Of a stretch of DNA of 33,684 nucleotides, positions 3,543 to 33,557 are shown one piece after another (the stretch's first letter is position 1; each line of letters begins with the position of its first letter). The notes under the pieces are model-generated. The model was not told the DNA's origin. It searched no databases and saw nothing but the letters and a program-made list of their open reading frames with translations. Source of the stretch: Alphaproteobacteria bacterium (GTDB lineage Bacteria > Pseudomonadota > Alphaproteobacteria > Elsterales > Elsteraceae). The DNA lies in NCBI GenBank assembly GCA_013298565.1, contig JAAFIC010000032.1, forward strand, positions 1 to 33,684, written 5' to 3'. Both the position numbers and the translations under genes were made by a program.

Positions 3543-6112
<2,570 letters not shown>

Positions 6113-6222
6113 GCCATCTCCCAAAACGATTGAAACCGTGGAACCCCTACCCATTTGTGCAGGCCGGTAAACCCGACTCTTGCAGACGCTTAATGTTAAC
6201 CCAATGACCTTCGCCCCTATTT

Positions 6223-7164
6223 TTAACGAGGGGCCTTGCGGAACGAAGGGTGCCAGAACGTGACCCGCCGCTCGATGAGCGTGATCGTGCCGTAGGCGAC
6301 CGAACCGACCACACTCGCAACAGCAATCGTCGCCCACACAACATCCACATTCATACGAGCGACTTCGGTAGAAATACGAAAGCCCATGCCGACAATCGGC
6401 GTGCCGAAAAACTCTGCCACGATAGCGCCAATCAAGGCCAGAGTGGCGTTCAGTTTTAGCGCGTTGAAGATCATCGGTGCCGCTACTGGCAAGCGTAAGG
6501 CGAGCAGAGTTTGACCGTAATGCGCGCCATAAGACCTCATTAAATCCCGCTGCATCCGGTCTGTTCCCTGCAAGCCGGCCAGCGTGGAAATCAGCATGGG
6601 AAAGAAGGTCATCACCACGATCACCGCCGCTTTTGAGGGCCAGTCAAAACCGAACCACATCACCATGATTGGCGCAATCCCAACAATAGGAATAGCGCTA
6701 ACAAGGTTCCCCAGCGGTAGCAACCCGCGCTGCAAGAACGGCGAGCGGTCCACCAGCAGGGCAATGATGAAAGCCGCGCCATTGCCAAGCAGATAGCCCG
6801 CAATCACCGATTTTAGCACCGTCTGCTGAAAATCGGCCCAAAGCACTGGAGCTTGTACAACCAGCGCTAACCCGATAGCGCTCGGTGCAGGCAGCAGCAC
6901 TTTCGGCACGCCAAAGCCGCGCACGGCAACTTCCCAAACATAGAGAATTGTTAGCCCGAATAGCGCTGGAACGATAATCCCATAGCGCGCTTCCAGCCTG
7001 GGGTTCCGCACAATAATATTCATGACCGTAACGGTGCTGAAAATAAAGGCGGCAATCAGACCGACAGCAGGCAACTGTGTGAAAGGCTCGTTCCTAAGAA
7101 AGACTTGGTATAACCCCAGCCCAATTACAAAAATGGGGAGATAGAGATAGAGTTGCTTATTCAT
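6223..7164 (-). CDS. ABC transporter permease, component 2 (pyrimidine-type)
   Basis: A 313-residue inner-membrane permease of the BPD/TauC-SsuC type with about six hydrophobic segments. The cytoplasmic coupling loop that contacts the ATPase is the region around GTDRMQRDLMRSYGAH. Its ATG overlaps the stop of the preceding permease as ATGA (7161-7164), which fixes the start and implies translational coupling; a longer upstream frame is only overlap with the other permease. Together with the other permease it probably makes a heterodimeric channel. Annotated pyrimidine ABC importers in comparable clusters also have two transmembrane components. Confidence 0.87.
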   Translation of the reverse strand: MNKQLYLYLPIFVIGLGLYQVFLRNEPFTQLPAVGLIAAFIFSTVTVMNIIVRNPRLEARYGIIVPALFGLTILYVWEVAVRGFGVPKVLLPAPSAIGLALVVQAPVLWADFQQTVLKSVIAGYLLGNGAAFIIALLVDRSPFLQRGLLPLGNLVSAIPIVGIAPIMVMWFGFDWPSKAAVIVVMTFFPMLISTLAGLQGTDRMQRDLMRSYGAHYGQTLLALRLPVAAPMIFNALKLNATLALIGAIVAEFFGTPIVGMGFRISTEVARMNVDVVWATIAVASVVGSVAYGTITLIERRVTFWHPSFRKAPR

Positions 7165-20749: not shown

Positions 20750-22042
<1,293 letters not shown>

Positions 22043-22052
22043 ACTCACTCAC

Positions 22053-22105
22053 CTTCCCCTTGCCGCACAGGCGATTCCGCGCGAGACTGCTATGGCAAGG
22101 GGAGG
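22053..22105 (+). promoter_or_regulatory. Inverted repeat that would cover the nucleotidyltransferase ribosome site
   Basis: CTTCCCCTTGCC (22053-22064) pairs with GGCAAGGGGAGG (22094-22105) over 12 bp with one wobble. The right arm includes GGGGAGG, the ribosome-binding site of the gene starting at 22111. It might block translation, or act as a terminator for the aminotransferase gene. Confidence 0.45.
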
Positions 22106-22110
22106 ATGCG

Positions 22111-22401
22111 ATGAAGCCATCTGCTGCGCTAAACCATCATCGTGTCGCTGTGCGCGAAGTCGTTAGCCGTTTTCGGGTAACAAACCCGCGTGTTTTCGGC
22201 TCGGTCCTGACGGGTACCGATACAGACATCAGCGATCTCGATTTACTGGTCGATCCCCTCCCAGGTGCGACGCTCTTCGATCTCGGCGGGCTTCAGGAGG
22301 AGCTTCAGCATCTTCTCGGCGTTCGGGTCGATGTGCTCACCCCCGGCGGCTTACCAAACAAGATGCGCGCCGCCGTTCTTGCCGACGCGATGCCAGTGTG
22401 A
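22111..22401 (+). CDS. MNT-type nucleotidyltransferase (MntA-like antitoxin), orphan
   Basis: A 96-residue minimal nucleotidyltransferase. The catalytic pattern GS-x10-DxD is intact: Gly30-Ser31, then Asp42-Leu-Asp44 within ISDLDLLVD. ELQHLLGVRVDVLTPGGL follows, as in MntA-like proteins. These usually sit directly before a HEPN (DUF86) toxin and silence it by adding AMP. Here the next frame begins GTG overlapping the stop (GTGA) and reads SLTRLADYLDHI, like the beginning of a HEPN protein, but is then lost. The start at 22111 has a strong GGGGAGGA 5 nt upstream. It may be a relic or may act on another partner. Confidence 0.85.
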   Translation: MKPSAALNHHRVAVREVVSRFRVTNPRVFGSVLTGTDTDISDLDLLVDPLPGATLFDLGGLQEELQHLLGVRVDVLTPGGLPNKMRAAVLADAMPV

Positions 22402-22437
22402 GCCTTACGCGACTGGCTGATTATCTCGATCATATAT
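22398..22437 (+). pseudogene. Remnant of a HEPN (DUF86) toxin gene
   Basis: A GTG start overlapping the nucleotidyltransferase stop as GTGA opens a frame whose first 12 residues (SLTRLADYLDHI) resemble the N-terminal helix of DUF86 HEPN proteins. From about 22437 the frame only mirrors the antisense lipoprotein gene, so at least 100 residues, including the RX4-6H RNase motif, are missing. The assignment rests on few residues plus gene order. Confidence 0.45.
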
Positions 22438-22444
22438 GCTCAGA

Positions 22445-22912
22445 TTACTTCTTCCCCAACTGCGTCGTCAGCCAATTTGTAAACGCGGGCGCGTTCATAT
22501 CATTCTGCAACCCCGTGAGCATTTTGGCGATGGGGGCACGGTCGCTGCTTTCGGAACAGGAAGTGCTGCGTTGCCCGGCTTGCGACTGGCGTTCCGCCTT
22601 ATAGGCCCCCAGGAACCAGCCTTGCGCGAGGCTTGGGAGGGCAGGCAAGAGGCCGTCGATATCGCTCACGCGCTTATCGAGGTCTTTGGTCGGCAGGGAG
22701 CAGGTTTCCGATGCCTCGGCAATGCGGGCGGCCATGAGGGCGAGCGCGCGCAGATCACTTACCCCGGCCATCGCCAAACCATTCACCTGAACGATTGAGG
22801 GGGCGGTCGCGGAGTTTGTCTTAGCCACGTCCGATCCCGCTTGTTGGCAAGCGGCCAGTGTAAGGGCCGCAACAATCGGCAGAACCAGGGAAAGCGCGCG
22901 GGGGTAGAGCAA
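22445..22912 (-). CDS. Putative lipoprotein of unknown function
   Basis: A 155-residue protein with an N-terminal signal segment (SLVLPIVAALTLAACQQ) ending in a lipobox LAAC, so it should be lipidated at Cys22. The rest is a small soluble domain with about four cysteines and several Ala-rich helices; I do not recognise the family. Initiation is at TTG 22912, supported by AGGAG 6 nt upstream; no in-frame ATG gives an intact signal peptide. Its 3' end abuts the HEPN remnant and its 5' end faces the suf operon divergently. Confidence 0.75.
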   Translation of the reverse strand: MLYPRALSLVLPIVAALTLAACQQAGSDVAKTNSATAPSIVQVNGLAMAGVSDLRALALMAARIAEASETCSLPTKDLDKRVSDIDGLLPALPSLAQGWFLGAYKAERQSQAGQRSTSCSESSDRAPIAKMLTGLQNDMNAPAFTNWLTTQLGKK

Positions 22913-29658: not shown

Positions 29659-31002
29659 TTAAAACAAGCGCAGCGCCGCATTCAGGAGCGAGAGACTGAT
29701 AATCATTCCCAAGCTGCCCAAGCCGACGAACAAAATATTACGGCTCAACAGCAACCGTTGCTGCGGCACGGCAAACATGAAGGTCGCGACGATCAACGTC
29801 ACGCCCGACGGCGAGACCATGACGGCGAACCCCCAGGCCGATTGAATGGCCTGGGTCATCACTATTTCGTCCAGCCCGCTTGCCGCCTGTCCCAGCACAC
29901 CAATCAGCACGGCTGCCGTAATCATCGGGTGAATGCCGATAATCCCGCCGCCGATCATGGCGACAAAAATCGCCGTGAGCACCAGCGGCACTGGCAGCCC
30001 GCCGATCAAGGGGGCGAGCGCCGCAATCAGCCCTGGCGAGCCTTCGATCAGCCGCCCGAGGCAGAGGGCGACCGTTATCAGCAAAACCTCGTCCGCCCCG
30101 CGCCCAAGGCCCCGCCACACGGTTTGCGTCACGCTTCGGCTCATCCGGGGGGCTTGCCACAGCAGGGCGATCACGGCGAGCGGTAGGGTTGCGACGACGA
30201 CGGCATCGAGCTTGCCGATCTTAGTAGTTGCGACCAGCAGAATCGTCGCCCCGGCAGCAATCCCACAGTGCGGCAGAATCGGGAGCGCGGCGCGTACCCC
30301 CGGCAGCAGGGAGCCGCCTTTCTCCAACCGCCACGCCAGCAGGAACGCCGCTGCCGCAAACGCTAGTCCCATCCCAAGATGCCCAAGACCATCGCTTCCC
30401 GGCAGATACTGCGTGCCGAAAGCCACCGAGACGGCAAAGGGCGACCAAAAGGCCGAAAAGCAAATTCCGCGCAAGCAGATCAACGCCATTTGTCGCCGCT
30501 CGTCCTCCGGCGCGTTATGCGGCAGCAGCGGCGCGAGCATAGCGTGCGCCCCTGTGGTTAGAATGCTGCCAAGGCCGGTTGAGAGCACAAGGGTGCCGGT
30601 ATCGCGCCCCTGGGCCGGAAGCTGCACAAAGGCCGCCCGCGCTCGCGCCATCGCCGGAAGCTCCCCCACGATCACGCGCAAAATCTGAAGCACGGGTAGA
30701 TAGGCGGCGAAAGTGAGGGCATCGGCCAGCCCCGCCCCAACAGCGCTGAGGGGAGCACCGCCGAGCAGCAGGGCCGCGCAGGCCGCGACCAGCATAGTGG
30801 CAATCGCCAGCGTTCGCCCCTTCACCAGTGGCAGTGCGGTTGCGACCAAAAGCAGCGCGGCACCAATCGCCAGCAGCGGCGGCAGGGTCAATCCCAAGGC
30901 GCGGCCCAGGGTGATGATGATGAAGCTCGCCAATAGCCCGCGATGCAGAAGAAGGCACAGGTGCCGTGCTCCTATCGGGCCAGACTTGCGGCTTGGTTCC
31001 AT
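29659..31002 (-). CDS. Polytopic membrane protein, possible transporter
   Basis: A 447-residue protein with about 11 or 12 hydrophobic helices and short basic loops. It has two loosely similar halves, each with a motif of polar residues between hydrophobic runs: FSAFWSPFAVSVAFG in the first and GIHPMITAAVLIGVLG with AVMVSPSGVTLIVATF in the second. This repeat of small and polar residues in broken helices recalls ion-transporter-superfamily permeases, but I cannot place it in a family. It faces the aminotransferase operon divergently across 120 bp. Substrate unknown. Confidence 0.7.
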   Translation of the reverse strand: MEPSRKSGPIGARHLCLLLHRGLLASFIIITLGRALGLTLPPLLAIGAALLLVATALPLVKGRTLAIATMLVAACAALLLGGAPLSAVGAGLADALTFAAYLPVLQILRVIVGELPAMARARAAFVQLPAQGRDTGTLVLSTGLGSILTTGAHAMLAPLLPHNAPEDERRQMALICLRGICFSAFWSPFAVSVAFGTQYLPGSDGLGHLGMGLAFAAAAFLLAWRLEKGGSLLPGVRAALPILPHCGIAAGATILLVATTKIGKLDAVVVATLPLAVIALLWQAPRMSRSVTQTVWRGLGRGADEVLLITVALCLGRLIEGSPGLIAALAPLIGGLPVPLVLTAIFVAMIGGGIIGIHPMITAAVLIGVLGQAASGLDEIVMTQAIQSAWGFAVMVSPSGVTLIVATFMFAVPQQRLLLSRNILFVGLGSLGMIISLSLLNAALRLF

Positions 31003-31122
31003 ACCGAAACTTCCCGTAACGAAATTTTAAGTGCGGGCGTGAAGCAAGTCACTATGATCTGCTCTGTCTTACAGGGCCGTGTAGGCTCTGCCTGTGTCGA
31101 TTGATTTTGTTTGGAAATACGA

Positions 31123-32256
31123 ATGTCCCTTGCTGCTCCGCTTCCCTTCATCGACCTTAAAGCACAGCGCCGCCGTCTTGGTCCGCAAATTGAGCAAGCC
31201 TTGGTGCGGGTTTTGGAGCATGGGGCCTTCATTATGGGGCCGGAAGTGCGCGACCTTGAAGCCCAACTGGCCGCCTACGCCGGGGTGAAGCACTGCATCT
31301 CCTGTGCTTCGGGTACGGACGCACTGATGATGGTGCTGATGGCGAAGGGCATCGGGCCGGGCGATGCAATCTTCTGCCCGTCCTTCACCTTCGCCGCGAC
31401 TGCGGAAGTGGTGGCGCTGTTGGGGGCCTCGCCGATTTTCGTCGATGTCTGCGCCGATGACTTCAATATTGATCCCGTCAGTCTGAAAGCCGCGCTTCCG
31501 GTGGCCGAGGCGGCGGGGCTAACACCGCGCGGGATTATTGCCGTCGATCTCTTCGGCCAACCCGCCGATTACCGCGCCCTCCAGCCGCTTGCCGACGCCA
31601 ACGGCCTGTGGATTCTGGCCGATGCCGCACAGAGCTTCGGTGCCAGTTACGATAACCGCCGCGTCGGCGCTGTGGGCGATTTTGCCACCACGTCCTTCTT
31701 TCCGGCCAAACCCTTGGGTTGCTATGGCGACGGCGGCGCGATTTTCACGAATGATGATGATTTTCGCGACGTGCTGCACTCGATCCGCGTTCACGGCCAG
31801 GGCCGCGATAAGTACGAAAACGTCCGCCTCGGTATCACGGGGCGGCTCGATACGATGCAGGCAGCAGTTTTGCTGCAAAAAATGACGATTTTCGACGATG
31901 AAATCGCCGCGCGCAACGCGGTGGCGGCGCGTTACGCAGCGGGTTTGCCGAAGGAGATGATCGTTCCCACACTGCTGGCGGGGCGCACCTCGGTGTGGGC
32001 GCAATATACGGTTCTGCTAGAGAACCGCGACGCTGTGCAGCAAAAGCTCCAGGCGGACGGCATTCCGACGATGGTCTATTACATGCGCCCGCTGCACACG
32101 CAGCCGCCGTACCAAAAGTACCCGCAGGTTCCTGGCGGACTGCCGGTCACGGATAGCCTATCGCAAAAAGTGTTGAGCCTACCCATGCACCCCTATTTGG
32201 ACACGCCGACGCAAGAGCGGATTCTGAGCGCGGCTCACCGGGCGGTCGCGGCATGA
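31123..32256 (+). CDS. DegT/DnrJ/EryC1 family sugar-nucleotide aminotransferase (GnnB-like)
   Basis: A 377-residue PLP aminotransferase of the sugar-nucleotide (WecE/ArnB-like) family. Blocks: PFIDLKAQRR, SCASGTDALMM, FTFAATAEVV, DLFGQPADY, ADAAQSFGASY and the PLP lysine Lys196 in SFFPAKPLGCYGDGGAI. The start ATG 31123 is preferred to an upstream TTG (31111). It overlaps the next gene as ATGA. With a GlcNAc 3-dehydrogenase-like partner it would add an amino group at C3 of a UDP-3-keto-GlcNAc, as GnnB does in making diamino sugar for lipid A, or WbpE in O-antigen synthesis. Confidence 0.88.
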   Translation: MSLAAPLPFIDLKAQRRRLGPQIEQALVRVLEHGAFIMGPEVRDLEAQLAAYAGVKHCISCASGTDALMMVLMAKGIGPGDAIFCPSFTFAATAEVVALLGASPIFVDVCADDFNIDPVSLKAALPVAEAAGLTPRGIIAVDLFGQPADYRALQPLADANGLWILADAAQSFGASYDNRRVGAVGDFATTSFFPAKPLGCYGDGGAIFTNDDDFRDVLHSIRVHGQGRDKYENVRLGITGRLDTMQAAVLLQKMTIFDDEIAARNAVAARYAAGLPKEMIVPTLLAGRTSVWAQYTVLLENRDAVQQKLQADGIPTMVYYMRPLHTQPPYQKYPQVPGGLPVTDSLSQKVLSLPMHPYLDTPTQERILSAAHRAVAA

Positions 32257-33215
32257 GCCTGTCGCCGCTCTCCGTCTCGGTCCTCGGCGCGGGCTTGATG
32301 GGCGGCAATCACGCCCGCACGTTGGCAAGCCTGCCGGGGGCGAGGCTCCACCGGATTTTCGATCCGCACGCGGAGCGCGCCGCAGTTCTGGCCGCGCAAA
32401 CGGGCGGGCAGGCAACCGCCGATCTCGACACGGCTTTGGCGGGCGCGGATGCCGTGGTGATTGCCGCTAGCTCCGCCGCTCATGCCAGCCTTGCTCAGGC
32501 CGTGATTGCGGCGGGCAAGCCGGTTCTCATCGAAAAGCCGTTCGCGGTTACGGCCCTCGAAGCCGAAGCCGTTATTGCCGCTGCCGAGCGGGCAGGCGTG
32601 CCAGTGGCAACGGGCCATGTGGAGCGTTTCAACCCGGCCTTCCTCGCTGCTCAAAAACTGCTCCAGGGCCGCCGGATTCTCGCGATTGATGGGCGGCGGT
32701 TGAATGTAGGCTCCAACCGCATCCTCGATACGGACGTGGTTATCGACTTGATGATCCACGACATCGACGCGGCGGTGGCCCTGATGGGCGGCGTGCCGGA
32801 GGGGTTGGTAGCGCAAGGCTTCGCGCTCGCTGAAGGCACGGCCAAGCGCGATCACGTGCTGGCGGCTTGGACGCAAGCCACGCCGTCGCCGGTTCGCGTC
32901 TCGATGCACGGCAGCCGCCTGGTCCCCGACCGTGTGCGCGAAACGCGGGTGCTGACAGAAGACGGGATGGTGGTTATCGACTTTCTCAATCGCACTGTTC
33001 AGGCCAGCGAGTGCCTCCTTCCCGATGGGCAAAGCGAAGGCCGCAGCTTGGTGCCCGTCGCGGTTCAACCGCACGAATCCCTCGCCGCCGAACTCACTCA
33101 GTTCCTGCACGGGCTTCGGCAGGGGCGGCCTGAAGACGTGGGCGTAACCGTGCAGGCGGCCTTGCCGGTTCTCAGCCTCGTTTGGGCCATTCAAAATCAG
33201 CTTTACGGGGTCTAA
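32253..33215 (+). CDS. Gfo/Idh/MocA family oxidoreductase (GnnA-like UDP-sugar 3-dehydrogenase)
   Basis: A 320-residue NAD(P)-dependent sugar dehydrogenase. The N-terminal Rossmann motif is VLGAGLMGGNHAR, the family EKP motif is in VLIEKPFAVT (Glu94-Pro96), and GHVERFNPAF (residues 121-130) is the pattern seen in UDP-GlcNAc 3-dehydrogenase-type members. It would oxidise C3 of a UDP-sugar so that the aminotransferase encoded before it, with which it overlaps by ATGA, can act. Its stop is immediately followed by the csaA-like ATG. Exact substrate is inferred from the pair. Confidence 0.87.
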   Translation: MSLSPLSVSVLGAGLMGGNHARTLASLPGARLHRIFDPHAERAAVLAAQTGGQATADLDTALAGADAVVIAASSAAHASLAQAVIAAGKPVLIEKPFAVTALEAEAVIAAAERAGVPVATGHVERFNPAFLAAQKLLQGRRILAIDGRRLNVGSNRILDTDVVIDLMIHDIDAAVALMGGVPEGLVAQGFALAEGTAKRDHVLAAWTQATPSPVRVSMHGSRLVPDRVRETRVLTEDGMVVIDFLNRTVQASECLLPDGQSEGRSLVPVAVQPHESLAAELTQFLHGLRQGRPEDVGVTVQAALPVLSLVWAIQNQLYGV

Positions 33216-33557
33216 ATGTCTGAAACCATTGCTTATGCCGATTTCGAGCGCGTCGATATCCGCGTTGGCACCATTATCGAAGCGTTGCCGTTCCCGGAAG
33301 CGCGCAAACCCGCCATTAAGCTGCGTGTCGATTTCGGCCCGGAGATCGGCGTGAAGAAATCCAGCGCGCAGATTACCTTACACTATCAGCCGGAAAGCCT
33401 AGTGGGGCGGCAGGTGGCCGCCGTGGTCAACTTTCCGCCACGCCAAATCGGCAAATGGCTCTCGGAAGTGCTGGTCTTAGGTTTCCCCGATGCCGATGAC
33501 GCGGTGGTTCTGGTTAGCCCCACGGTGCCCGTGCCCAATGGCGGCAAGCTCTTTTAA
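33216..33557 (+). CDS. csaA: CsaA-like tRNA-binding protein
   Basis: A 113-residue OB-fold protein of the CsaA type, related to the tRNA-binding domains of MetRS and PheRS beta chains. Recognisable blocks: DFERVDIRVGTIIEA, PAIKLRVDFGPEIGVKKSSA, VAAVVNFPPRQIGKWLSEVL and the C-terminal VPNGGKLF. CsaA binds tRNA or acts as a chaperone in B. subtilis. The ATG follows the previous stop directly, so it is probably translated with the sugar enzymes, though no functional link is evident. Confidence 0.93.
   Translation: MSETIAYADFERVDIRVGTIIEALPFPEARKPAIKLRVDFGPEIGVKKSSAQITLHYQPESLVGRQVAAVVNFPPRQIGKWLSEVLVLGFPDADDAVVLVSPTVPVPNGGKLF

Follow-up and report, generated by a model that had tools for sequence, protein, structure and literature searches.

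The window analysed here, an entire contig (C53) of 33,684 bases from a 3.02-Mb alphaproteobacterial genome that is 97% complete, carries two overlapping genes, gnnB and gnnA, whose products very likely supply UDP-GlcNAc3N (UDP-2-acetamido-3-amino-2,3-dideoxyglucose) for lipid A biosynthesis. This GnnB-GnnA assignment, already proposed in the initial annotation, is supported rather than proved: sequence (with GnnA of Acidithiobacillus ferrooxidans, AfGnnA, as best match of known structure), predicted structure, phylogeny, genome content and residues of LpxA all point to a conversion of UDP-GlcNAc into UDP-GlcNAc3N. In the predicted order of reactions, GnnA would oxidise the 3-hydroxyl group of UDP-GlcNAc with NAD+, the 3-keto product would be transaminated by GnnB, and LpxA would then acylate the 3-amino group, placing amide linkages in lipid A where ester linkages would otherwise stand. 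The pathway is a known one and, as far as our searches reached, has not previously been described for this organism.

The gnnB-like gene (positions 31123–32256, + strand; 377 aa; DegT family, PF01041, 343 bits) is predicted to encode a UDP-sugar 3-aminotransferase; it starts with ATG, and an in-frame TTG lies upstream at 31111. The gnnA-like gene (32253–33215, + strand; 320 aa; Gfo/Idh/MocA family, GFO_IDH_MocA, 78 bits) is predicted to encode a UDP-GlcNAc 3-dehydrogenase, and its start codon overlaps the gnnB stop codon in the sequence ATGA (32253–32256, + strand). Open reading frames, Pfam matches and motif coordinates confirmed the arrangement given in the initial annotation, i.e. a sugar-nucleotide aminotransferase and a Gfo/Idh/MocA dehydrogenase with the GHVERFNP motif, joined by this overlap. 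In GnnB, the PLP-binding lysine K196 (SFFPAKPLG; codon 31708–31710, + strand) was located by alignment with the lysine of WbpE. The residues of GnnA that are invariant in a 40-sequence alignment (A3) include K95 of the EKP motif (codon 32535–32537), G121, E124 and N127 of GHVERFNP (residues 121–128; 32613–32636) and D165, H169 and D170 of DVVIDLMIHD (32733–32762), all encoded on the + strand.

The same pair is present in the congener G115, whose proteins are 90% (GnnB) and 84% (GnnA) identical to those of the window. Since the pairing, the gene order and the ATGA overlap are all conserved there, the arrangement is not a product of chance. In the fragmented assembly of G116, gnnB and gnnA are each split over frames. 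The window genome contains one close full-length copy of each gene, its other homologues being at most 36% identical, and plasmid records contain distant homologues only (all below 60% identity).

A csaA-like gene (33216–33557, + strand; NF007495 and TIGR02222 both over cut-off) follows gnnA with zero gap and is therefore likely to share one transcript with it. The gnnB-gnnA-csaA order recurs in G115, and we know of no role of csaA in the diaminoglucose pathway. The 125 bases that close the contig (33560–33684) recur with 100% identity in a second place in the genome (G000:C40:41372–41496), and the contigs of G115 and G116 likewise stop shortly 3′ of csaA; downstream of this gene the assemblies break at a repeat, perhaps the leader of an rRNA operon. 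Elsewhere in the window, a 447-aa membrane-like protein without a Pfam or NCBIfam match is encoded divergently from gnnB (29659–31002), and an ORF with a nucleotidyltransferase domain (21748–22401; PF01909) precedes one of 120 aa that matches no Pfam family (22436–22798); these two could be an MNT-HEPN-like pair. A search for inverted repeats around gnnB-gnnA revealed nothing of note, and Rfam gave no match in the window or in the loci of two congeners.

The best PDB sequence match of the dehydrogenase (119 bits) is 7bvj, titled UDP-N-acetylglucosamine 3-dehydrogenase GnnA from A. ferrooxidans, compared with 34 bits for 3q2k, the WlbA dehydrogenase by its entry title. An AlphaFold model built from 40 sequences (pLDDT 92.8) gave AfGnnA as the top hit in VIA-align (Z 38.7; 299 residues aligned with an rmsd of 1.8 and 31% identity), followed by the next protein at Z 35.6, with WlbA at 33.8, and 7bvj was also ranked first by Foldseek; over the two comparisons the identity to AfGnnA is only 30–31%. 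This margin is supporting and not decisive, because all the compared proteins share one fold. Both the EKP lysine and the DLMIHD motif are present in the window protein, and AfGnnA reads DVIMDLMIHD at the latter site. GHVERFNP alone is insufficient for the assignment, because AfGnnA itself reads GHIKRVHP at this position. The score against the archaeal UDP-GlcNAc 3-dehydrogenase model NF040723 was 132 bits, below its cut-off of 450.

The window genome contains lpxA, lpxB, lpxC, lpxD and lpxI (lpxA and lpxC over cut-off), including an lpxD-fabZ-lpxA-lpxI-lpxB cluster separate from gnnB-gnnA, which has no lpx genes beside it. Such a distance is normal in this class, since in phyllobacteria, Bradyrhizobium japonicum and Brucella melitensis gnnA and gnnB are described as neighbours located at a distance from the lpxA cluster (PMC5644692); papers on Phyllobacterium and Oligotropha assign these genes to diaminoglucose lipid A (PMC5644692; PMC7663294). 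At least 80 named loci with gnnA homologues, which do not constitute a census, were examined. Among the matches listed, gnnA and gnnB are adjacent in Bradyrhizobium, Rhodopseudomonas and their relatives, and gnnA lies inside lpxA/lpxI/lpxB clusters in Nitrospira, Acidobacteria, Verrucomicrobia, a Deltaproteobacterium and others; the order gnnA-gnnB-lpxB was found in at least two Nitrospirae loci. No lpx genes were found next to gnnA in three genomes of the same family as the window genome. In locus L223 (G119:C261), the same-family gnnA is placed between an acyl-CoA-ligase-like gene and lptD/lptG, and a similar acyl-CoA-ligase-like gene precedes gnnA in L224.

The co-occurrence of the two genes was examined with a GnnA profile over 116 genomes, including that of the window. 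With the threshold for GnnA-positive genomes at ≥243 bits, set after inspection of the gap down to 205 (G095) and 191 bits (G013), 27 of the 116 were positive. GnnB was detected at E≤1e-90 in 25 of these 27, compared with 16 of the 89 GnnA-negative genomes (Fisher 1.5e-12).

The initial annotation had named the specificity of LpxA as a check on its reading. By sequence comparison, the LpxA of the window genome fits the GnnA-linked pattern, with Gly, His and Arg at E. coli positions 142, 74 and 76 (Ala, Asp and Lys in E. coli itself). The underlying scan comprised 577 column-residue pairs in 89 alphaproteobacterial LpxAs (26 GnnA-positive, 63 GnnA-negative), representing 89 of the 95 genomes with an LpxA match; G030, G031, G062, G072, G084 and G098 (all GnnA-negative) and the second LpxA of G001 were left out, and the GnnA-positive G120 had no LpxA match. 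Gly at position 142, beside Gly143, was found in 25 of the 26 GnnA-positive versus 17 of the 63 GnnA-negative genomes (p=5.9e-10) and stood far ahead among the 577 tests, followed by residues at 104 and 74, and then 135 and 76. Weaker associations were observed for His74 (10 of 26 versus 3 of 63) and for Lys76, which is kept in 14 of the 26 GnnA-positive and 57 of the 63 GnnA-negative genomes. None of 2000 label shuffles was as extreme for Gly142, whose counts were 21/22 versus 14/60 with the window's own family reduced to the window genome. An independent-pairs test on the LpxA tree yielded 3 pairs only and had no power, so trait simulation on a quick, midpoint-rooted tree was used instead; results as extreme arose in 0, 2 and 5 of 5000 simulations for positions 142, 74 and 76, respectively. 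Among the Hyphomicrobiales gnnA-gnnB genomes reached via the named loci, Gly142 is present in 9 of 9 and Lys76 absent in 8 of 9. Two of the GnnA-negative genomes in which Gly142 occurs, G117 and G121, are fragmented assemblies of the window's family with GnnB but no GnnA match.

These marks are associations within Alphaproteobacteria, with no causation implied, and do not form a general rule, because the Gly142 mark fails outside this class (4 of 12 lpx-linked gnnA loci among the matches listed); of the same 12 listed loci, 7 lack Lys76, including those of three related Nitrospira. The LpxA of structure 6oss, presumably from the glucosamine organism Proteus, likewise carries Gly at position 142. 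The LpxA of Leptospira prefers the 3-amino sugar, and Gly143 is, we assume, the glycine of the oxyanion hole. The GlcNAc pocket of the E. coli enzyme is tabulated as Gln73, Asp74, Leu75, Lys76, His125, Gly143 and His144 (PMC7072397). The same table lists Ala138-Gly139 for P. aeruginosa and Asp69-Leu70-Gly71 for Leptospira, and therefore the Lys76 equivalent in the latter is Gly; the oxyanion hole is described there as the backbone amide of a conserved Gly.

We tentatively propose, at somewhat less than even probability, that in Alphaproteobacteria the sugar pocket of LpxA has repeatedly changed as gnnA was gained or lost, with Gly replacing Ala142 and with Lys76 and Asp74 often lost as well, and that these residues set the preference for UDP-GlcNAc3N over UDP-GlcNAc, so that the backbone type might be readable from lpxA alone within this class. 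The co-variation of LpxA with GnnA is the one less expected result here. Literature searches, which were more broadly aimed, found no paper connecting residue 142 of LpxA with diaminoglucose, and unreported status is not claimed. In the GnnA-positive genome G001, two lpxA-like genes lie close together (G001:C121:4390–5142 and 6107–6871), recalling lpxA/lpxA′ of Capnocytophaga canimorsus, which has a hybrid backbone (PMC3342949).

The presence of diaminoglucose in lipid A, predicted in the initial annotation, is the most likely outcome in view of the lpx genes, the LpxA residues and the example of Bradyrhizobium, which has the same pair and whose lipid A is described as a diaminoglucose disaccharide (PMC6102379). 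Because only one lpxA over cut-off is present, our first guess is a backbone of two diaminoglucoses. A less probable sub-case of the same explanation is a hybrid lipid A, in which LpxA would take both sugars to give a GlcN3N-GlcN backbone. Two other alphaproteobacteria, Granulibacter bethesdensis and Acetobacter pasteurianus, are described as having such lipid A (PMC8036547), but C. canimorsus, with its hybrid backbone, has two lpxA genes (PMC3342949) against the single one here, a difference that weighs weakly either way.

The main alternative of the initial annotation, an O-antigen role of a WbpB/WbpE-like pair, which we take to mean synthesis of UDP-GlcNAc3NAcA or another 3-amino sugar for O-antigen or exopolysaccharide, is disfavoured and appears improbable. 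The dehydrogenase tree argues against it. This tree comprised 79 rows (30 of the 109 collected were dropped), 17 redundant loci from Bradyrhizobium, Prochlorococcus and Flavobacterium having been removed beforehand and the window's own duplicate loci removed from both this tree and that of GnnB. Eight of the 9 dehydrogenases labelled as coming from WbpB/WbpD-type loci formed a separate clade (100/96), and the remaining one, whose locus combines both kinds, was of the GnnA type. The window GnnA falls outside the WbpB-like clade and groups only within its own family, with G115 and three further genomes (97/98); it is also placed outside the Bradyrhizobium GnnA clade and the clade uniting AfGnnA with lpx-linked genes (97/98), the backbone between clades being poorly supported. 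The GnnA-like proteins of G047 and G050, two genomes given the class of the window genome, cluster closely in this tree with locus L108, titled Alphaproteobacteria, in agreement with the placement of the window genome in that class. Moreover, no WbpD-like acetyltransferase was found in the 97% complete genome (best match 33% over a part, E 1.5e-9), and no polysaccharide gene product is among the 16 further proteins of the window that were scanned (they include SUF iron-sulphur assembly, pyrimidine-type catabolism and the membrane-like protein), on a contig that ends 469 bases 3′ of gnnA.

The aminotransferase provides the points in favour of an O-antigen role. The best PDB sequence match of GnnB is 4qgr (429 bits), which we take to be from Brucella, and WbpE is second (366 bits). 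4qgr is a DegT aminotransferase whose entry name gives no function; two features that it has in common with the window GnnB, namely an inserted segment and the region PLHxQ..YxxY, are different in WbpE. In the GnnB tree (65 rows), most alphaproteobacterial proteins were separated from WbpE (99/99), and the window GnnB grouped with G115, G035 and G121 (96/92) and, weakly, next to Bradyrhizobium (56/81). However, GnnB-like proteins 52–57% identical to that of the window adjoin WbpB-/WbpD-like genes in other alphaproteobacteria, and since the aminotransferases of such loci interleave with the window protein in this tree, GnnB alone is not diagnostic. GnnB identity was rejected as a test of function because the WbpB/WbpD-linked aminotransferases are equally similar; the His to Tyr change relative to WbpE in the sugar loop was likewise not diagnostic, Tyr being present also in WbpB-linked alphaproteobacterial homologues. 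In four alphaproteobacterial loci (L193, L196, L197 and L199), a WbpB-like dehydrogenase and a WbpD-like acetyltransferase are encoded in one open frame, with a WbpE-like gene directly 3′ of it in L193, L196 and L197. The other DegT proteins of the window genome are one PseC, scoring over cut-off, and two for which no assignment reached its cut-off.

It is least probable, and indeed very unlikely, that UDP-GlcNAc3N is made but used elsewhere (in a glycolipid, protein glycan or exopolysaccharide) with lipid A keeping glucosamine: archaea (L152, L154, L162) and picocyanobacteria (L106, L133) also carry GnnA-like genes, so not all such genes need serve lipid A, and Cochlodiniinecator combines an unpaired GnnA-like gene with an Ala142, Asp74, Lys76 LpxA, but the LpxA of the window genome carries the GnnA-linked residues. 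In L106, L119, L133, L148 and similar loci (Prochlorococcus/Synechococcus/Cyanobium), the GnnA-like gene is present and a GnnB-like gene is absent from the flanks seen.

The preferred reading, synthesis of UDP-GlcNAc3N for lipid A, constitutes a testable chemical prediction for this organism. LpxA residues that track gnnA would allow backbone chemistry to be predicted from genomes, and the three residues (74, 76 and 142) are candidates for the means by which LpxA discriminates between an amine and a hydroxyl. Lipid A of the diaminoglucose type, carrying amide-linked chains, is found in organisms that are reported to be weak immune stimulators, namely Bradyrhizobium and Granulibacter (PMC6102379; PMC8036547).

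Among known systems, WbpB/WbpE of the O-antigen UDP-GlcNAc3NAcA pathway belong to the same enzyme superfamilies and perform the same C3 chemistry as that predicted for the window pair, but differ in dehydrogenase clade and gene neighbourhood, and the window genome is without WbpD. GnnA/GnnB of A. ferrooxidans follow the same two-gene logic, with a Gfo/Idh dehydrogenase and a DegT aminotransferase; the A. ferrooxidans GnnA (structures 7bvj and 7bvk) has its fold and motifs in common with the window protein at an identity of about 30%. The A. ferrooxidans genes presumably lie beside lpxA, whereas the window pair is far from it. In Bradyrhizobium and Rhodopseudomonas the pair is likewise adjacent, but in the order gnnA-gnnB as opposed to gnnB-gnnA in the window; their GnnB proteins are 58–61% (59–61% for most Bradyrhizobium loci) and their GnnA proteins 38–40% identical to those described here, and their LpxAs (five Bradyrhizobium and one Rhodopseudomonas) have Gly142 without Lys76, as does the LpxA of the window genome.
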